DNA from: Candidatus Faecousia intestinigallinarum
GTDB taxonomy: Bacteria; Bacillota; Clostridia; Oscillospirales; Oscillospiraceae
Assembly (NCBI GenBank): GCA_018715805.1
Contig: DVKX01000047.1
Span: 1-64,000, forward strand
Direction: 5' to 3'
DNA: 64,000 nt
Below, in pieces: positions 41,822-64,000 of the stretch; position 1 is the stretch's first letter; each line of letters starts with the position of its first letter. Both the position numbers and the translations under genes were made by a program. Below the pieces are notes generated by a model that was given only the letters and a program-made list of their open reading frames with translations, did not search any database and was not told where the DNA came from.

Positions 41822-41935
41822 GTGGGCGTACAGAGTAGGGTATCCTGCGTGAAGTGCTGCCAAAATGGGGAGTTGTCTGGCAGACGAAGGACGCTGTCCG
41901 CGATGGGAGACCCGCACCCGCTGCCCATATTGGTG
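41822..41935 (+). promoter_or_regulatory. Tetrahydrofolate (THF / folT-type) riboswitch aptamer
   Basis: AGAGTAG, GCGTGAAGTG, GGGGAGTTGTC, GACGAAGG, CCGC blocks in the order of the THF riboswitch; upstream of a FolT-like ECF S component. Confidence 0.85.
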
Positions 41936-42111: not shown

Positions 42112-43158
42112 ATGTCCAGACAAACAAAATCCACCCTTACCTACAAATCCCCTTTCTCCAAGGCCTACTGGCGGGATGCCGCCATGGAGCTGAAGGACAC
42201 CAAAATGCTGGTGTTCGCCGCGCTGATGATCGCTCTGCGGCTGGTGCTGAAGACCTTCGTCGTCATCCCCTTGGCTCCGAACCTGAACATTAACACCGCC
42301 TTTCTGGCCAACGCCCTGGGCGCCATGACCTTCGGCCCGGTGATGGCGGGCATCTGCGCCGTGATCACCGATGTGCTGGGCTTCCTGCTCAAGCCTGTGG
42401 GGGTATACTTCGTTCCCTTCGTACTTACGGAAGTGGCCGGCTCCGTGATCTTCGCCCTGTTCCTCTACCGCGCCAAGGTCACCCCCGCCCGGGTGATGCT
42501 CAGCCGGTTCTGCATCTGCTTCTTTGTAAACGTGCTGCTGCAGGCTCCCATCATGATGTGGTACAACGCAGTCACCGTAGGCAGCAGCAGCTATGTGCTC
42601 ACCATCCCCGGCATTGTGAAGAACCTGTTCATGTTCCCCATTGAGTCCGTGGTGCTGACTCTCTTCCTGCGGGTCATGCTGCCCATTACCAACCGCCTGG
42701 GGCTGACCTACGGCGGAAACGCCAAGGACAACCTGCGCTTTTCCAACAAGCAGGTGGCGCTGCTGGTGGTGCTGCTGGTGGTGGGCGCCGCCAGCGTCTT
42801 CGGCTACCTGAACTACCATTACCAGACCACCTCCCTGTCCGCCGCCTACTCCACCCAGGAGCGCATTGCGGCCAACCAGTCCATGCAGGAGATCCTGCTG
42901 GAAGAGGGCAGCGTCTCCGGCGAGCCGGTGACCATCGTGGAGTCCGCCATGAAGCCCTTCCTGGGCAGCGAGATCACCTATACCGTAGGCGTTTATGAAG
43001 TGACCGGGGAATACAGCGAGGAGATGTGGAAGCTCTCCAAGTCCAAGGCTGCGAAGGACGAAAACCTGACCCGGGTGGGCACGGCGGAGATCGTGGTGAA
43101 CAGCAAGACCGGCGAAACCCTGTCCTACAGCTATACGCCGCAGCCGCCGGAGGAGTAA
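42112..43158 (+). CDS. FolT-like ECF transporter S component with C-terminal TM + extracytoplasmic domain
   Basis: FAALMIALRLVLKTFVVIPLAPNLNINTAFLANALGAMTFGPVMAGICAVITDVLGFLLKP; C-terminal TM VALLVVLLVVGAASVFGYL plus about 110 aa. Confidence 0.85.
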   Translation: MSRQTKSTLTYKSPFSKAYWRDAAMELKDTKMLVFAALMIALRLVLKTFVVIPLAPNLNINTAFLANALGAMTFGPVMAGICAVITDVLGFLLKPVGVYFVPFVLTEVAGSVIFALFLYRAKVTPARVMLSRFCICFFVNVLLQAPIMMWYNAVTVGSSSYVLTIPGIVKNLFMFPIESVVLTLFLRVMLPITNRLGLTYGGNAKDNLRFSNKQVALLVVLLVVGAASVFGYLNYHYQTTSLSAAYSTQERIAANQSMQEILLEEGSVSGEPVTIVESAMKPFLGSEITYTVGVYEVTGEYSEEMWKLSKSKAAKDENLTRVGTAEIVVNSKTGETLSYSYTPQPPEE

Positions 43159-43224
43159 GCAGTTGACTTTTTCCGCCGCTCGGGATATACTAAGGCTAAT
43201 CTAAAATAAAAAGGAGCGACCCTT

Positions 43225-43701
43225 ATGTATATTGATTCGGAGCATCTCAACGAGGATTCCCATTCGCTCCCTGAGCACCCGCAGGAGCATCCTCATGAAC
43301 ATCCCCACGAACACCCTCATGAACACCCCCATGGGCATCCTCACGAACACCCTCATGAACACCCCCATGGGCATCCTCACGAACACCCCCATGAACATCC
43401 CCATGGGCATCCTCACGAACACCCCCATGAACATCCCCATGCGCACCCCCATGACTGCGCCCACGATTGCGGCAGCTGCGGCGAGGGCTGCCAGCACACC
43501 CCCATGGAGGAGCTGCTGGCGCTGATGAAATATATGGTCGGGCACAACGCCGCCCATGCCAAGGAGCTGGCGGATCTGGCGGTTCAGCTGGAGAACGCCG
43601 GAAGTCACACCGCTTATGAGCAGGTGATGGCTGCAGTATCCGATTTTGAAAAGGGCAACCTGCGCCTGTCCACGGTGCTGGCCAGCCTGGATGTGAAGTG
43701 A
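43225..43701 (+). CDS. Extremely His-rich (HPHE)n protein with Cys-rich hinge and helical C-terminal domain; candidate Ni-binding protein
   Basis: EHPQEHPHEHPHEHPHEHPHGHPHEHPHEHPHGHPHEHPHEHPHGHPHEHPHEHPHAHPHDCAHDCGSCGEGCQH; AAGGAG RBS; next to a CooT gene. Confidence 0.8.
   Translation: MYIDSEHLNEDSHSLPEHPQEHPHEHPHEHPHEHPHGHPHEHPHEHPHGHPHEHPHEHPHGHPHEHPHEHPHAHPHDCAHDCGSCGEGCQHTPMEELLALMKYMVGHNAAHAKELADLAVQLENAGSHTAYEQVMAAVSDFEKGNLRLSTVLASLDVK
43279..43455 (+). repeat. 36-nt coding tandem repeat (HPHEHPHEHPHG unit)
   Basis: Repeated CATCCTCACGAACACCC(C/T)CATGAACA(C/T)CCCCATGGG units. Confidence 0.85.
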
Positions 43702-43712
43702 GGAGTTCGCCC

Positions 43713-43910
43713 ATGTGTCTTTCTACTGTATATCGAAACAAAATGGAGCCGGAGACCGTGGCCATGCGCAACGTGATGCGCATTGAGTGCAGGGACGGCC
43801 TGGTGATCCTCACCGATCTCATGGAGCGGCAGATGGCCATTGAGGGAACCCTGGAGCAGGCCAACCTGGTGGACGGCTTTGTGATCGTCCGGGAAAACAT
43901 CCCTGCCTGA
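43713..43910 (+). CDS. cooT: CooT-family nickel-binding protein
   Basis: MCLSTVYRNKMEPETVAMRNVMRIECRDGLVILTDLMERQMAIEGTLEQANLVDGFVIVRE; Cys2 start typical of CooT. Confidence 0.82.
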   Translation: MCLSTVYRNKMEPETVAMRNVMRIECRDGLVILTDLMERQMAIEGTLEQANLVDGFVIVRENIPA

Positions 43911-43925
43911 CAGGCAAAATACACC

Positions 43926-43966
43926 GCGTCCCCAGAGGGTTTTCCTCCCTCTGGGGACGCTTTTTT
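43926..43966 (+). terminator. Intrinsic terminator after cooT
   Basis: GCGTCCCCAGAGGG TTTTCCT CCCTCTGGGGACGC TTTTTT. Confidence 0.88.
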
Positions 43967-44015: not shown

Positions 44016-44067
44016 TTGACAAGCAGGAACAGCAGTGTTATTCTTATTTCGGTACTTCCGTACCGAA
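44016..44067 (+). promoter_or_regulatory. fhs promoter with start-site inverted repeat
   Basis: TTGACA (44016-44021)-17-TATTCT (44039-44044); perfect IR TTCGGTAC-TTCC-GTACCGAA at 44048-44067. Confidence 0.75.
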
Positions 44068-44084
44068 TATTCACCATGTGCGGT

Positions 44085-44145
44085 GAGCCACTGCAACGGC
44101 AGCCGCATAAATCCTAGTAGGGCTGCGAGCCACACAAACGGCAGC
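44085..44145 (+). promoter_or_regulatory. Tandem 19-nt repeat leader of fhs, possible structured cis-element
   Basis: GAGCCACtgcAACGGCAGC (44085-44103) and GAGCCACacaAACGGCAGC (44127-44145); 16/19 identical, 42-nt period. Confidence 0.6.
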
Positions 44146-44175
44146 GGTCACTAAAATACAAGGAGTGTTGTAATT

Positions 44176-45849
44176 ATGGAATTCAAAACAGACATCGAAA
44201 TCGCGCAGGCAACTCCCATGGCGCCCATCACCGAAGTGGCCAAAACCGCCGGTGTGGACGAAAAGTACCTGGAGCAGTACGGCAAGTACAAAGCAAAGGT
44301 AGACTATAACTTGCTCAACGAGGTGAAGCGCCCCGACGGCAAGCTGATTCTGGTCACCGCAATCAACCCCACCCCCGCCGGCGAAGGCAAAACCACCACC
44401 ACCGTGGGTCTGGCCGACGGTATGCGGAAGATCGGCAAGAACGTTCTGGTCGCCCTCCGCGAGCCTTCTCTCGGCCCAGTGTTTGGCGTCAAGGGCGGCG
44501 CTGCCGGCGGCGGCTATGCACAGGTCGTTCCTATGGAAGACATCAACCTGCACTTTACCGGTGACTTCCACGCCATTGGCGCTGCCAACAACCTGCTGGC
44601 CGCCATGCTGGATAACCATATCTATCAGGGCAATGCTCTGAATATTGACCCCCGGCAGATCACCTGGCGCCGCTGCGTGGACATGAACGACCGCCAGCTC
44701 CGCTTCGTGGTGGACGGCCTGGGCGGCAAGACCAACGGTATGCCCCGCGAGGACGGCTACGACATCACTGTGGCCTCCGAGATCATGGCCGTGCTGTGCC
44801 TGGCCTCCGACATTACCGACCTGAAGCAGCGTCTGGCGCGCCTGGTGGTGGCCTACACCCGGGACGGCCAGCCCGTTACTGCCGGCGACCTGAAGGCGCA
44901 GGGTGCTATGGCCGCTCTGCTGAAGGATGCTCTGAAGCCCAACCTGGTGCAGACTCTGGAGCACACCCCCGCATTTGTCCACGGCGGTCCTTTCGCCAAC
45001 ATCGCCCACGGCTGCAACTCCGTCACCGCTACCAAGATCGCTATGCGTCTGTCCGACTATACCATCACCGAGGCCGGCTTCGGTGCCGACCTGGGCGCTG
45101 AGAAGTTCCTGGACATCAAGTGCCGTATGGCTGGCTTGACCCCCAGCTGCGTAGTGCTGGTGGCCACTGTCCGTGCCCTGAAGTACAACGGCGGCGTGCC
45201 CAAGGCCGAGACCGGCAAGGAAAATCTGGAGGCTCTGGAGAAGGGTCTGCCCAACCTGCTGCGGCACGTGGAGAACATCACCACCGTGTACAAGCTGCCC
45301 TGCGTGGTGGCCATCAACCGCTTCCCCCAGGACACCGAGGCCGAACTGGCGCTGGTGGAGCGCAAGTGCAAGGAGCTGGGCGTAAACGTGGCGCTGTCCG
45401 AAGTGTGGGCCAAGGGCGGCGAGGGCGGCATTGCCCTGGCCGAGGAAGTGGTTCGTCTGTGCGAGCAGCCCAATGACTTCACCTTCTCCTACGAGCTGGA
45501 TCTGCCCATTAAGGACAAGATCGAGGCCATTGTCAAGAAGATCTACCATGGCGACGGTGTGAATTTCACTGCCGCTGCCGAGAAGCAGATCAAGACCCTC
45601 ACCGATCTGGGCTACGACAAGATGCCTATCTGCATGGCTAAGACCCAGTATTCCTTCACCGACGACCAGACCAAGCTGGGCGCGCCCACCGGCTTCACCG
45701 TGACCGTGCGCAACATCAAGGTTTCTGCCGGCGCCGGCTTCCTGGTGGCGCTGACCGGCGAGATCATGACCATGCCCGGCCTGCCCAAGGTGCCCGCTGC
45801 TGAGCGCATTGACGTGGACGAGACCGGCAAGATCTCCGGCCTGTTCTAA
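44176..45849 (+). CDS. fhs: Formate--tetrahydrofolate ligase
   Basis: [78 protein letters not shown]. Confidence 0.97.
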
Positions 45850-45926
45850 TCGCTACATTCCGCAAAAGCACAGGCGGCATCCCCGCCTGTGCTTTTTGAA
45901 ACTGTGAAATAAGGAGACATCATTTT

Positions 45927-46544
45927 ATGGATATGACTTTGGAATCCTGCCGGAAATTTGTGGAAGTTCTGGCGTCCAACGCCCCCGCCCCCGGCGGCGG
46001 CGGCGCGGCGGCGCTGGTGGGCGCCATCGGCACCGCCCTGGGCAACATGGTGGGCTCTCTCACCGTGGGCAAGAAAAAGTACGCCGATGTGGAGGCGGAG
46101 ATCCTCGCCCTGAAATCCCAGTGCGACGCCCTGCAGACGGCGCTGCTGGATCAGGTGGAAGCCGATGACAAGGGGTTTGTGCCTCTGGCCAAAGCCTACG
46201 GCATCCCCAAGGACGACCCCACCCGGGACGCCGTCCTGGAGGAGGCCACCATCACCGCCTGCGCCGTGCCCATGCACATTATGGAGCTTTGCTGCCAGGC
46301 CATCGACTGCATCGCCGTATTCGCCGCCAAGGGCAGCCGTCTGGCTGTATCCGATGCCGGCTGCGGGGCGGTATGCTGCAAGGCTGCGCTGCAAGCCGCT
46401 TCCCTGAATGTGTTCATCAATACCAAGAGCCTGAAAAATCGCGCCGCTGCCGAGGAGATGAACGCCAAGGCCAACGGTATGCTGGATAAGTACTGCGCCC
46501 TGGCGGACGAGATCTTCGCACAGGTACGCGCCAACTTCAATTAA
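45927..46544 (+). CDS. fchA: Methenyl-THF cyclohydrolase/cyclodeaminase family (FchA)
   Basis: CRKFVEVLASNAPAPGGGGAAALVGAIGTALGNMVGSLTVGKKKY. Confidence 0.9.
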   Translation: MDMTLESCRKFVEVLASNAPAPGGGGAAALVGAIGTALGNMVGSLTVGKKKYADVEAEILALKSQCDALQTALLDQVEADDKGFVPLAKAYGIPKDDPTRDAVLEEATITACAVPMHIMELCCQAIDCIAVFAAKGSRLAVSDAGCGAVCCKAALQAASLNVFINTKSLKNRAAAEEMNAKANGMLDKYCALADEIFAQVRANFN

Positions 46545-46565
46545 CCGACAAGGAGATTACATATT

Positions 46566-47444
46566 ATGGCAAAATTACTGCTGGGCAAGGAAGTTACCGA
46601 CGCACTGAACGCCGACCTGCAAAAGCGCACCGCCGCCCTGGCCGCCGCCGGGAAGAAGGCCACCCTGGGCATCATCCGCATTGGCGAGGATCCCAGCGAT
46701 CTGAGCTACGAACGGGGCGCCACCAAGCGCGCCGAGCTGGTGGGCGTGGAAGTGGTGAAGTTCCTGCTGCCCGCCGACGCCTCCAAAGAGGAAGTTTTGG
46801 CCACCATCGACAAGGTGAACGCCGACCCCGCCATCCATGGCGTGCTCATGTTCCGTCCGCTGCCCAAGCACCTGAAGGCGCACCAGGACGAGATCTGCAA
46901 CCGCCTGGATCCCAAGAAGGATGTGGACTGCATGACCGACCTCTCCAACGCCGGTGTGTTCGAAGGCCGGGCAGACCTGGGCTTCGCCCCCTGCACCCCC
47001 GCCGCCTGCATGGAGATCCTGGACTATTACGGCATTGACTGCAAGGGGAAGAACGCCGTGGTCATCGGCCGGAGCCTGGTGGTGGGCAAGCCTGCCGCCA
47101 TGATGCTCATGGGCAAGAACGCCACCGTCACCGTATGCCACACCCGCACCGTGAACACTGCGGAGATTGCCCGGAACGCGGACATCCTCATCTCCTCCGC
47201 CGGCGTGCTGGGCAGCCTGACCCGGGACTTTGTGCGCCCCGGCCAGGTGGTCATCGACGTATCCATCAACTGGGATCCGGAGAAGCCCAACGCCAAGGGC
47301 GGCAAAGGCGCCATTGCCGGCGACGCCGTATTTGAAGAGGTGGAACCCATTGTGGACGCCATTACGCCCGTTCCCGGCGGCGTGGGCAGCGTGACCACCA
47401 GCGTGCTGATGAAGCACGTGGTAGAGGCCGCCGAGCGCGCCTGA
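46566..47444 (+). CDS. folD: Bifunctional methylene-THF dehydrogenase/cyclohydrolase
   Basis: CTPAACMEILDYYGIDCKGKNAVVIGRSLVVGKPAAMMLMGKNATVTVCHTRT...TPVPGGVGSVTTSVLMKHVVEAA. Confidence 0.95.
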   Translation: MAKLLLGKEVTDALNADLQKRTAALAAAGKKATLGIIRIGEDPSDLSYERGATKRAELVGVEVVKFLLPADASKEEVLATIDKVNADPAIHGVLMFRPLPKHLKAHQDEICNRLDPKKDVDCMTDLSNAGVFEGRADLGFAPCTPAACMEILDYYGIDCKGKNAVVIGRSLVVGKPAAMMLMGKNATVTVCHTRTVNTAEIARNADILISSAGVLGSLTRDFVRPGQVVIDVSINWDPEKPNAKGGKGAIAGDAVFEEVEPIVDAITPVPGGVGSVTTSVLMKHVVEAAERA

Positions 47445-49775: not shown

Positions 49776-50108
49776 TCATTTCATAAACTTATCCACCGCT
49801 TGACACAGGTCATCAATGGCCGCAGAATCCCCCGCCGCCACCGCGTCCACCATGCAGTGGCGCATATGATCCTTCAAAATGACCTTGCCCGTGTTGTCCA
49901 GGGCGGAGCGCACCGCCGCCAGCTGGATCAGCACCTCCGAGCAGTCATACCCCTCCTCCACCATCCGCTTCACCTTCTCCAGGTGGCCGATGGCGCGCGC
50001 CAGGCGGTTGAGGACGGCCCTCTGATTTTCGTGGACATGGCTGTGGGAATGGGGCAGGCCGTGGGCGTGCATATAGGCGTGGTTATGTTCCTGGGTGTGA
50101 TCGTCCAT
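49776..50108 (-). CDS. CsoR/RcnR-family metal-sensing repressor with His-rich N-terminus
   Basis: MDDHTQEHNHAYMHAHGLPHSHSHVHENQRAVLNRLARAIGHLEKVKRMVEEGYDCSEVLIQLAAVRSALDNTGKVILKDHMRHC. Confidence 0.9.
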   Translation of the reverse strand: MDDHTQEHNHAYMHAHGLPHSHSHVHENQRAVLNRLARAIGHLEKVKRMVEEGYDCSEVLIQLAAVRSALDNTGKVILKDHMRHCMVDAVAAGDSAAIDDLCQAVDKFMK

Positions 50109-59481: not shown

Positions 59482-59565
59482 CCGTGTTTTCCATACCCCC
59501 GCACCCCCGCCGGGGATGCGGGGCGCGCAATGCGCATTTCCCACTGGCAAAGGAGTAACTATACT

Positions 59566-60336
59566 ATGGCAACACCCCATACCATCGCGGTAGCCGGCAA
59601 GGGCGGCGTGGGTAAAACCACCACCTGCGGTATGCTCATCGACTATCTGTGCAAGAAGAAGCAAGGCCCCGTCCTGGTGGTGGACGCGGACGCCAACAGC
59701 AACCTGAACGAGGTGCTGGGGGTGGAAGTGGAAACCAGCCTGGGCGCAATCCGGGAGGAAATGGCACAGGCGGAGCTTCACGGCACCGTCCCCGCCGGCA
59801 TGACCAAAGCGGATTACGCCGATATGAAGTTCGGCGAAGCGCTGATCGAAGAGGACGACTTTGATATGCTGGTGATGGGCCGCACCCAAGGCAAGGGCTG
59901 CTACTGCTATGTGAACGGCGTCCTGAAAACCCAGATCGACAAGTACGCCAAAAACTACCGCTATCTGGTCATGGACAATGAAGCAGGGCTGGAGCACGTG
60001 GCGCGGGGGACCCTTCCCCATGTGGACACCATGCTCCTGATCTCCGACTGTTCCCGCCGGGGCATCCAGGCAGTGGCTCGGATCGCGGAAATGATCGAAG
60101 AAATGTCCCTGAAGCCCACCCAAATGGGTCTGATCGTCAACCGCGCCCCTGGCGGCGTGCTGGACGATGGTGTCAAAGCCGAAATTGAAAAGCACGGCCT
60201 CACACTCTTCGGCGTGCTGCCCCATGATGATGCCGTATACCGCTGCGACTGCGACGGCAAGCCGTCGGCGAAGCTGCCGGAGGACGACCCTGTGAAGGTC
60301 GCCCTGCGGAACATCATGGGTTCCATCGGGCTGTAA
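59566..60336 (+). CDS. cooC: CooC/AcsF-type nickel-insertion ATPase for CODH/ACS
   Basis: TIAVAGKGGVGKTTTCGMLIDYLCKKKQGPVLVVDADANSNLNEVLG; GRTQGKGCYCYVNGVL Cys motif; MDNEAGLEHVARGT. Confidence 0.93.
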   Translation: MATPHTIAVAGKGGVGKTTTCGMLIDYLCKKKQGPVLVVDADANSNLNEVLGVEVETSLGAIREEMAQAELHGTVPAGMTKADYADMKFGEALIEEDDFDMLVMGRTQGKGCYCYVNGVLKTQIDKYAKNYRYLVMDNEAGLEHVARGTLPHVDTMLLISDCSRRGIQAVARIAEMIEEMSLKPTQMGLIVNRAPGGVLDDGVKAEIEKHGLTLFGVLPHDDAVYRCDCDGKPSAKLPEDDPVKVALRNIMGSIGL

Positions 60337-60397: not shown

Positions 60398-61339
60398 ATG
60401 TCTTTTGTTCCTAAGACGCAGCCCTTCAGCGGCAAGATCAATGCCGTGACTCTGGGCACCGGTGACAAAGCTGTGGTCATCGGCGGTCAGAACGTGCTGC
60501 CCTTCTACACTTTCGACGCGCCCATTGAGCACGCGCCGAAGATCGGTGTGGAGATTTCCGACGCCGCCAACGAATGGGATGTGGCCGGCCTCCGCACTTT
60601 CTACGAAGGCTGCACCACCATGGCCGACTACGCCAAGCGGGCGGAGAGCATGGAGGGCGCAGACTTCCTGTGCCTGCACTTCGAGTCTGCCGACCCCAAC
60701 GGCGCCAACCGCTCCGTGGAGGACTGCGTCGCCGACGCCAAGGCCGTGGCCGAGGCGGTTGCCATGCCCATTGTGATTATGGGCTGCAAGAATATTGAGA
60801 AGGACGGCGAGCTTTTCAGCAAGATCGCCGAAGCCCTCCAGGGCAAGAACATCCTGGTGCTTTCCGCTCGTGCCGAGGACTACAAGACCGTGGGCGCTTC
60901 CGTTGCCCTGGCTTATGGTCAGAAGGTGGGCGCGGAGACTGCCGACGACATCAACCTGGCCAAACAGCTGAACATCATGCTCAAGGGTCTGACCGTGGCG
61001 CCCGAGTCCATCGTTATGAACATCGGCACCGCCGCCGTGGGCTATGGCTTTGAGTATGTGGCCTCCACCCTGGATCGCGTCCGCGCCGCTGCTCTGGCGC
61101 AGTCCGACGCCGACCTGCAAATGCCTATCATCTCCCCCGTGTCCTCCGATACTTGGGGTGTGAAGGAATCCACCGCTTCCGAAGAAGACGAGCCCACTTG
61201 GGGCTGCCGGGAAGAGCGGGGCATCGACATGGAAATCGCCACCGCCGCCGCCAACCTGGTGGGCGGTGCCGACGCCGTGATCATGCGTCATCCCGCCGCT
61301 GTCAGCACCATCAAGAAGTTCATTACCGAACTGATCTAA
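60398..61339 (+). CDS. acsD: Acetyl-CoA decarbonylase/synthase (CFeSP) small/delta subunit
   Basis: IGVEISDAANEWDVAGLRTFYEGCTTMADYAKRAESMEGADFLCLHFESADPNGANRSVEDCVADAKAV. Confidence 0.92.
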   Translation: MSFVPKTQPFSGKINAVTLGTGDKAVVIGGQNVLPFYTFDAPIEHAPKIGVEISDAANEWDVAGLRTFYEGCTTMADYAKRAESMEGADFLCLHFESADPNGANRSVEDCVADAKAVAEAVAMPIVIMGCKNIEKDGELFSKIAEALQGKNILVLSARAEDYKTVGASVALAYGQKVGAETADDINLAKQLNIMLKGLTVAPESIVMNIGTAAVGYGFEYVASTLDRVRAAALAQSDADLQMPIISPVSSDTWGVKESTASEEDEPTWGCREERGIDMEIATAAANLVGGADAVIMRHPAAVSTIKKFITELI

Positions 61340-61360: not shown

Positions 61361-63640
61361 ATGGCATTGAAAGGTCTTGACATTTTTAAGCTGTCTCCCA
61401 AGAAGAACTGCAAGGAGTGCGGCAGCCCCACCTGTATGGCCTTCTGCATGAAGGTCGCACAGGGCGCGGCATCCATCGATAAGTGTCCCTACTTCTCCGA
61501 CGAGGCGAAGGCTGTGCTCAACGAGCAGACCGCGCCTCCCATGAAGACCATTACCGTGGGCAACGACCTGAAGCTGGGCGGCGAGACTGTCCTGTTCCGG
61601 CATGAGAAGACCCTGGTAAATAAGAACCTGTACGCCGTGTGCGCCTGCACCCATATGGACGATGCCGCCGTGGACACTAAGCTGGCGGATATGCAGAAGG
61701 TGGACTATGAGCGCATCGGCGAAAGAATGTACGTAGAGTTCGTGCTGTGCAAGCATCACGACGGCGACTCCGCCGAAAAATATGTGGCGCTGGTAAACAA
61801 GGCCGCCGCCACCGGCCGCGCCCTGATCCTTGAGTGCCGGGATGTGGAGGTTGCCAAGGCTGCTCTGGCTGTGTGCAAGGAGGGCAAGCCCATCCTGAAC
61901 GGCGCCACCCCTGACAACTGGGAGGCTATGAACGCCGCCGCTGCCGAGGCCGGCGTGACCTTGGGCGTATGGGCGTCCAACCTGTCCGATCTCTATGATA
62001 CCGTGAAGAATCTGGAGGCCGCCGGCAACAAGAATCTGGTGCTGGATGTCACCGCCGCCACCGCCAAGGAGACCCTGGCCAACGCCGTTCTGGTGCGCCG
62101 CACCGCCCTGAAGGACGGCGACCGCAGCTTCGGCTATCCCTCCATCGTGAACGTGGCCAAGCTGGCCAAGGGCGATCCTCGCCTCCAGACCGCTTACGCC
62201 GCTATGTTCACCGAAAAGTACGGCTCCATCATCGTCATGGAAAACATGACCTACGCCGAGGCGCTGCCTCTGTACGGCCTGCGTCAGAACATTTTCACCG
62301 ATCCCCAGAAGCCCATGAAGGTGGAAGCCAAGATCTATCCCCTGAACGGCGCCGACGAGAACAGCCCCTGCTGCCTGACTGTGGACTTTGCTCTGACCTA
62401 CTTCCTGGTGTCCGGCGAACTGGAGCGGAGCAATCAGCCTGTGAACCTGCTGATCACCGACGCTTCCGGTATGTCCGTGCTCACCGCCTGGGCTGCCGGC
62501 AAATTCTCCTCTTCCTCCATTAAGAAGTTCTTTGATGAGAACGATATTGAAAACAAGATCAAGTCTCGCACCCTGATCATCCCCGGTAAGGTGGCTGTGA
62601 TGAAGGGCGAGATCCAGGAGAAGCTGCCCGGCTGGAATGTGGTGGTAGGCCCCATGGAGGCTGTGCAGCTGCCCAAGTACATGAAGGATAAGGAATACGA
62701 GGCCGCCGCCAAGGCTGCCGCCGCTGAGAATGCCGCCAAGGTCACCACCACCGCCGAGGTGAAGGAGCTCTCCTTCGAGGAGCTGCTGGAGACCCGGGTT
62801 CCCAAGATCGAAGTGGTGGATATGGGCGTGCAGTATAAGGGGCATAATCCCGAAGCCAAGACTTTCGTCACCATCGGCGAGCGCATCCACTGCATTGCGC
62901 CCACCATCCGCAAGGCTATGGACGAGCGTGATCCCGAACCCATCCTGAAGCGTGCCGCCGAGCAGATCGCCGCCGGCGCTACTTACCTGGATGTGAACAT
63001 CGGTCCTGCTGAAAAGGATGGTCCGGAGCGCATGATGTGGGCTGTAAAGCTGCTGCAGGAGAACTTCAACAACGTGCCCCTGGCGCTGGATACCGCCAAC
63101 AAGAAGGCTATCGAGGCCGGTATCAAGGTATACAACCGCACCAACGGCAAGCCCATCGTGAACTCCGCCGACGCCGGTTCCCGTATCAGCTACATTGATC
63201 TGGCCGCCGCCAACGACGCCATCTGCATCGCCCTTTGCTCTGCCGACGGCATTGCCAAGGACAATGAGGAGCGGATGAAGCACTGCCACAATATGCTTGA
63301 GCGGGGCATGAGCCTGGGCATGACCTCCGACGATCTGTGGTTTGACCCCCTGTTCCTAGTGGTCAAGGGTATGCAGGACAAGCAGATGGAAGTGCTGGAG
63401 GCCATCAAGCTGTTTGCCGACGAGGGTCTGAAGTCCACCGGCGGCTTGAGCAACAACTCCAACGGCGCTCCCAAGCATGTCCGTCCCATCATGGACGCCA
63501 CCCTGGTAGCCATGGCCATGATGCAGGGTCTGACCTCCGCCATCGTGAACCCCAATGACCTGCGGCTGATGGAGACCATCAAATCCTGCGACATCTTCAA
63601 GAATCACGTGCTGTACTCCGACTCCTACCTGGAGCTGTAA
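61361..63640 (+). CDS. Fused CFeSP large/gamma subunit (AcsC) + methyl-THF:CFeSP methyltransferase (AcsE)
   Basis: N-term CKECGSPTCMAFCMKVAQGAASIDKCPYFSDEA (AcsC 4Fe-4S motif); C-term KTFVTIGERIHCIAPTIRKAMDERDPEPILKRAAEQIAAGATYLDVNIGPAEKDGPERM...PIVNSADAG (pterin-binding AcsE); one 759-aa ORF. Confidence 0.93.
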   Translation: MALKGLDIFKLSPKKNCKECGSPTCMAFCMKVAQGAASIDKCPYFSDEAKAVLNEQTAPPMKTITVGNDLKLGGETVLFRHEKTLVNKNLYAVCACTHMDDAAVDTKLADMQKVDYERIGERMYVEFVLCKHHDGDSAEKYVALVNKAAATGRALILECRDVEVAKAALAVCKEGKPILNGATPDNWEAMNAAAAEAGVTLGVWASNLSDLYDTVKNLEAAGNKNLVLDVTAATAKETLANAVLVRRTALKDGDRSFGYPSIVNVAKLAKGDPRLQTAYAAMFTEKYGSIIVMENMTYAEALPLYGLRQNIFTDPQKPMKVEAKIYPLNGADENSPCCLTVDFALTYFLVSGELERSNQPVNLLITDASGMSVLTAWAAGKFSSSSIKKFFDENDIENKIKSRTLIIPGKVAVMKGEIQEKLPGWNVVVGPMEAVQLPKYMKDKEYEAAAKAAAAENAAKVTTTAEVKELSFEELLETRVPKIEVVDMGVQYKGHNPEAKTFVTIGERIHCIAPTIRKAMDERDPEPILKRAAEQIAAGATYLDVNIGPAEKDGPERMMWAVKLLQENFNNVPLALDTANKKAIEAGIKVYNRTNGKPIVNSADAGSRISYIDLAAANDAICIALCSADGIAKDNEERMKHCHNMLERGMSLGMTSDDLWFDPLFLVVKGMQDKQMEVLEAIKLFADEGLKSTGGLSNNSNGAPKHVRPIMDATLVAMAMMQGLTSAIVNPNDLRLMETIKSCDIFKNHVLYSDSYLEL

Positions 63641-63724
63641 TCAACCGTATTCCCATTGCCGGGAGGGGTTCTCCCTCCCGGCAAAAGCGCATTTATCCCC
63701 AAAATTTCTAAAGGAGGAGAACTT

Positions 63725-64000
63725 ATGAGTGTACTAACCGATCTGATCTACGGCGGTTCCAACGCCGTAGCCGGTCTAACGGAAGGCGCTGTCAACGACG
63801 CCATTGCCAAGTATGGCGCGGACAAGGAGATCGCGTTCCCCGATACCGCCTACTACTTCCCCACCATCTATGCCGCCACCGGCGTGAAGGTGAAAACCCT
63901 GGGCGACCTGCCCGCCTGCGTGGGCGTGCTGAAAAGCCTGATTACCAACCAGGAGGATCTGGGACAGGCGCTGAATGCCGGTCTGGCTACTGCGGTGGGC
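63725..64000 (+). CDS. acsB: CO dehydrogenase/acetyl-CoA synthase, ACS subunit (truncated by window end)
   Basis: MSVLTDLIYGGSNAVAGLTEGAVNDAIAKYGADKEIAFPDTAYYFPTIYAATGVKVKTLGDLPACVGVLKSL... Confidence 0.9.
   Translation, partial: MSVLTDLIYGGSNAVAGLTEGAVNDAIAKYGADKEIAFPDTAYYFPTIYAATGVKVKTLGDLPACVGVLKSLITNQEDLGQALNAGLATAVG

Follow-up and report, generated by a model that had tools for sequence, protein, structure and literature searches.

Alfano and colleagues reportedly described CooJ in 2019 as having a coiled coil at its N-terminus, in which the nickel motif H(W/F)X2HX3H is strictly conserved, followed by a variable C-terminal His tail. Its published role comes mainly from Rhodospirillum, and little is understood about how CODH and ACS acquire their nickel. 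The C-terminal tail of CooJ contains 16 His (PMC6006190), and CooT binds nickel with a Kd of 9 nM according to the statement in the same paper citing Timm et al. In Clostridium autoethanogenum, deletion of a His-rich gene (hp) beside CooT changed growth and products; the gene is conserved in other acetogens, and its function was left undescribed; nbp has likewise been deleted in this species (PMC10230548). More recently, a 2026 eLife survey of CODHs annotated "potential CooJs" on the grounds that they lie close to CooT in CODH operons of clade E/F (PMC13056359). Because of the hp deletions and these "potential CooJs", the kind of protein analysed here is already known in outline, and the proposal in an earlier note that it may be an undescribed metallochaperone family does not hold as worded; its hairpin domain also aligns, via intermediates, with proteins carrying HWX2HX3H. 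What is new here is the definition of the domain, the inversion of its order with the tail, its fusions, the CooT statistics and the distribution in the gut, where Faecousia is, in humans, a major CODH-bearing genus of Oscillospirales (PMC11338639). We report that the His-rich protein encoded in a 64,000-nt stretch of Candidatus Faecousia intestinigallinarum (the whole stretch analysed, hereafter the window; Table 1) most likely serves to store and chaperone nickel, as a relative of CooJ with its parts in reverse order.

Table 1. Features of the window, with positions counted from its first nucleotide
Feature	Position	Strand	Remarks
THF riboswitch (RF01831) ahead of folT	41829..41925	+	
folT-family ECF S component	42142..43158	+	TIGR04518, E=3.1e-20
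Sigma-70-like promoter TTGACT-17-TATACT, just 5' of the His-protein gene	43163..43191	+	10/12 consensus positions; consensus match only
His-rich CooT-partner protein: N-terminal His tail, Cys4 linker, C-terminal helical hairpin	43225..43701	+	158 aa, ATG start; relatives in 91/101 genomes of the genus
36-nt tandem repeats encoding HPHEHPHEHPHG	43300..43445	+	12-nt period array at 43288-43454
Cys linker C78-x3-C82-x2-C85-x3-C89	43456..43491	+	four Cys kept in genus and close relatives, missing from diverged members
Conserved C-terminal domain, two-helix hairpin	43483..43698	+	
YMVGHNAAH motif	43531..43557	+	H107, N108 and H111 invariant in family; columns of HWX2HX3H in distant relatives
cooT (PF10133), near-obligate downstream neighbour	43713..43910	+	E=1.2e-17; starts 12 nt past the His-protein stop codon
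Intrinsic-terminator-like hairpin, 3' end of the two-gene unit	43926..43960	+	consensus match only
FTHFS RNA (RF02981) ahead of fhs	44048..44165	+	
fhs, fchA, folD: methyl-branch genes	44176..47444	+	fhs and folD named from sequence
CsoR/RcnR/InrS-type metal-sensing repressor, His-rich N-tail	49776..50108	-	divergent from the His-protein gene in many relatives
cooC/acsF-like ATPase of the acs cluster	59530..60336	+	
acsD	60398..61339	+	ends with its own stop codon
acsC-acsE fused ORF	61361..63640	+	759 aa: corrinoid protein large subunit and methyltransferase
acsB, 5' part, the genome's second acsB	63656..64000	+	runs past the window to contig position 65854

The open reading frame, its 36-nt coding repeats and the Cys-rich stretch DCAHDCGSCGEGCQH that follows them are present as the earlier note described, and a count of its HP dipeptides gives 15 instead of about 20. 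The N-terminal ~90 aa hold 32 His and 4 Cys. The repeat array is clean (4.1 copies, 96% matches, score 250) and is built on an underlying 12-nt period of 13.9 copies, so it is not a product of chance. It is also evident that the array is a local expansion, because the window protein has 29 HP/PH steps compared with 2 to 13 in the long-tailed relatives of the genus, whose tails typically contain 25-31 His in mostly HTHEHTHD-like order. Among relatives, the length and sequence of the tail vary fast while its His-richness stays, and some members (L098-L105) are nearly tail-less with CooT still present. The family is therefore defined by the hairpin, which is what the relatives conserve, and not by the poly-HPH repeat; the HPHE/HPHG repeat is the form that a rapidly evolving, His-rich tail takes in this species. 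In comparisons with nine relatives, codon changes fall predominantly at third positions (e.g., 3, 3 and 19 changes at positions 1, 2 and 3 over 70 codons), and the gene is thus under purifying selection. A chance repeat or an antisense artefact was ruled out by the conserved frame and by the concentration of variation at third positions.

The C-terminal domain, expected to be helical, is a two-helix hairpin in the AlphaFold monomer model (pLDDT 93.7). It spans ~65 aa and is far better conserved than the tail, with Y/F at position 103 in this clade in addition to the invariant residues in Table 1; the named close relatives of the genus include Candidatus Faecousia (Oscillospiraceae). Searches of Pfam and NCBIfam gave no match to the window protein above a curated cut-off, and a match to a zinc transporter (Zip, E=0.79) was rejected as low-complexity and under its cut-off. 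Foldseek with the hairpin returned generic ferritin-like hairpins (half-bundles), with CooJ absent among the best 50 matches, and PDB sequence searches with the domain returned mostly designed coiled coils, with CooJ only at E 1.3-1.5. The alignments of CooJ (6hk5_B) with two domain profiles (E=1.5 and 1.3) run end to end over nearly the whole profile and are not significant, and profiles A1, A2, A4, A5 and A6 gave no match with CooJ (6hk5).

The distant members carry HWIEHNxSH or, in some, HLxEHNxDH in the same columns where the Oscillospiraceae members carry YMxxHNxxH. We take the HWX2HX3H of the distant relatives to be the signature that defines CooJ. Compared with the CooJ motif, the YMVGHNAAH of the window protein keeps the second and third His, and the first His and the W/F are replaced. 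The His tail is N-terminal in the window protein and in nearly all members examined, among them a 115-aa protein of Acetoanaerobium noterae with HWVDHNNSH, which is encoded near cooT beyond the acs cluster and aligns with the A2 profile (the broad family alignment) at an hhalign probability of 94%. We therefore call the window protein CooJ-like and regard common ancestry with CooJ itself as probable; we do not file it as CooJ, since it lacks the full motif and the C-terminal tail, two defining features.

At the A. noterae locus (NZ_CP154629.1, L222:1085-2072), one small ORF lies between cooT and the His-rich gene. Although listed as a plasmid, the record is 2.6 Mb long, contains a complete acs cluster and has the appearance of a misfiled chromosome. 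The plasmid-borne CODH locus of Ruminococcus albus has neither a cooT nor a His-rich gene annotated next to cooS.

The partnership with CooT is near-obligate. As noted earlier for this locus, the His-protein gene lies immediately upstream of cooT, the only one in this genome, and the same arrangement recurs widely: in 301 Oscillospiraceae genomes, the domain gene is directly upstream on the same strand at 105 of 114 CooT genes (median gap 24 nt), and the genomes divide into 108 with both, 4 with the domain only, 3 with CooT only and 186 with neither. CooT is downstream in 79 of 80 named Faecousia-type loci. Similarly, all 13 convincing matches in the wider phylum outside this genome (L096-L108), and all 17 members in another class, sit directly upstream of cooT. 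In the window, the two genes are probably one unit, bracketed by the promoter-like and terminator-like sites; the THF riboswitch and the FTHFS RNA flank this unit. The Wood-Ljungdahl neighbourhood proposed earlier holds for the methyl-branch genes, which follow the unit, whereas the acs genes start 16 kb downstream. A fusion of acsD, acsC and acsE into one ORF was ruled out by the stop codon after acsD, the fusion being of acsC and acsE only. The repressor gene lies 6 kb off in the window, and a His-tailed repressor of this type is directly divergent from the His-protein gene in 31 of 80 Faecousia loci. Because it is so often divergent from the CooT pair in relatives, it may be regarded as a candidate nickel-responsive regulator; its Cys-His-Cys ligand pattern would suit either Ni(II) or Cu(I).

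The domain also co-occurs with CODH/ACS genes, as the earlier note had anticipated. When the 301 genomes were scored for the TIGR01702 CODH, 79 had both, 29 the domain without CODH, 18 CODH only and 175 neither, and the association is strong in the genus table of domain versus CODH (34/6/8/58; P=3.5e-14, Fisher's exact test, kinship being handled only by collapsing to genera). Diverged members lie within acs clusters, typically in the order domain-cooT-cooC and then acsD/acsC or acsB (L087, L090-L094; L210, L212, L213, L215, L216). The genome of the window carries cooS-cooC-acsB on another contig, and no NiFe hydrogenase was found in it. The pair is also present in 25 genomes without the TIGR01702 CODH, five of them in one genus at 95-100% completeness; two such TIGR01702-negative genomes (G162 and G164) have acs genes in the pair's own cluster. 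Since the pair is kept in CODH-less genomes, its client may be broader than CODH/ACS; the assignment to CODH/ACS has a strong genus-level tie behind it and is perhaps too narrow.

Certain members are joined to other proteins. In one genome (L217), the last gene of a NikABCDE-like operon encodes the hairpin domain in fusion with a NikE-like ATPase, and this fusion may be an assembly error because it comes from one genome only. A second architecture of ~300 aa, found at five loci (L061, L062, L064, L065 and L068), consists of a SAM methyltransferase, a His-rich linker and the hairpin; its neighbours are CbiMQO and FmdE in L062 and a B12/siderophore-type ABC transporter in L064.

A further observation concerns the CODH-less Oscillospiraceae (L086:3124-3861 and L231-L240; e.g., L239:3436-8000), which encode a PF03598-like protein of 240-295 aa with a conserved CxxCx5C end. 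In some genomes its gene accompanies those of two double-cubane/HGD-D proteins and an ASKHA activase; in others its companion is a CooC-like ATPase gene. This set could be an uncharacterised Fe-S or Ni-Fe-S system.

The His-rich tail and the conserved hairpin are almost always beside CooT in bacteria that make acetyl-CoA from CO2 with nickel enzymes. For this reason, we consider it probable that the window protein is a cytoplasmic nickel buffer and chaperone that works with CooT to load nickel into CODH/ACS, a divergent and domain-inverted relative of CooJ. The N-terminal His tail, together with the Cys4 linker in this clade, would hold several Ni(II) ions reversibly, and the hairpin, which probably dimerises as CooJ does, would offer a more specific site around H107/H111. 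The hairpin may then dock on CooT, which with CooC/AcsF would pass nickel to the C-cluster of CODH and the A-cluster of ACS, presumably in this order. An Hpn-like role as a general intracellular nickel store or detoxifier, in which the tail buffers free Ni(II) and the linkage to CooT reflects co-regulation by a nickel-sensing repressor and not delivery to one enzyme, could explain the persistence of His-richness in a fast-changing tail, the divergent repressor genes, the pair in CODH-less genomes and the fusion to an importer ATPase. Such a store is unlikely, given that the hairpin with its invariant H/N/H is much more conserved than the tail, that CooT is retained by the nearly tail-less members and that the domain is so strongly tied to CODH at the genus level. 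His-rich tails bind several divalent metals, and this general affinity, the fit of the repressor ligands to Cu(I)-CsoR and the Zip match could point to zinc, copper or cobalt instead of nickel. Cobalt is possible because some methyltransferase fusions adjoin B12/siderophore-type ABC genes or CbiM and because the AcsCD corrinoid needs cobalt. In the neighbourhoods read, however, genes for zinc or copper transport, chaperoning or storage do not recur consistently, and it is such a linkage that the earlier note had named as evidence against nickel; the constant partner is CooT, itself a reported nickel binder, and the Zip match is low-complexity and below cut-off. A metal other than nickel is therefore highly improbable.

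The genomes with the pair and without CODH bear on what the client is. The pair might serve another Ni-Fe-S system besides or instead of CODH/ACS, composed of the short protein resembling the ACS middle domain with its CooC-like ATPase, the double-cubane (HGD-D) proteins and the ASKHA activase. The PF03598-like protein occurs in 14 of 16 TIGR01702-negative genomes with the pair (only pair-bearing genomes being counted), its gene is directly upstream of the pair in one of them (G136) along with CooC-like and ASKHA genes, and several genomes have HgdB-like genes alongside. We nevertheless regard this as very unlikely, as the CdhC-like protein lacks the ACS A-cluster domain PF19436 and most genomes with the pair have a true CODH. 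A wider proposal, which we hold to be possible though doubtful, is that the hairpin is a widespread, unnamed nickel-chaperone domain tied near-obligately to CooT, of which the C-tailed CooJ is one variant, and that evolution has combined it with poly-His tails at the N-terminus, with an importer ATPase of the NikE type and with a SAM methyltransferase; its role in gut bacteria that lack CODH would be to supply nickel to an unrecognised Ni-Fe-S system of the ACS-like small protein, double-cubane proteins and CooC-like ATPase.

On the preferred reading, a nickel chaperone acting with CooT, the acetogen gene beside CooT that is still named a hypothetical protein would be given a family, a partner (CooT) and a candidate site (H107/H111, the Cys4 linker and the tail). 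The distribution of the hairpin family tracks CODH/ACS across many Bacillota, Faecousia included, and the persistence of the pair in genomes without CODH hints at a further possible client for nickel. The move of the tail to the front and the fusion to a nickel importer suggest how such chaperones may evolve.

Among the described systems, CooJ of R. rubrum (PDB 6HK5) is like the window protein in its His-rich tail and small helical domain, its encoding with cooT and cooC and its HX3H. It differs in that the tail of the window protein is N- and not C-terminal, that this clade has YMX2HX3H in place of H(W/F)X2HX3H, and that the window protein has a Cys4 linker and a CODH/ACS rather than a coo-operon context. 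The acetogen hp (CAETHG_1604 / LABRINI_07945; PMC10230548), likened here by its description, is also His-rich and directly adjoins CooT and the Wood-Ljungdahl cluster, and in the A. noterae member, as in the window protein, the tail precedes the domain, whereas the window gene sits with folT and fhs, 16 kb from the acs genes. The "potential CooJ" survey (PMC13056359), set beside our results by description, took the neighbours of CODH, while ours were identified through the domain, and many of them lie away from cooS. His-tailed HypB and Hpn/Hpl share the concept of a poly-His nickel reservoir. Unlike HypB, the window protein gave no Pfam or NCBIfam match above cut-off to a SIMIBI GTPase domain, which in HypB follows the His tail, and unlike Hpn/Hpl it is more than a tail, having a conserved hairpin and a partnership with CooT.
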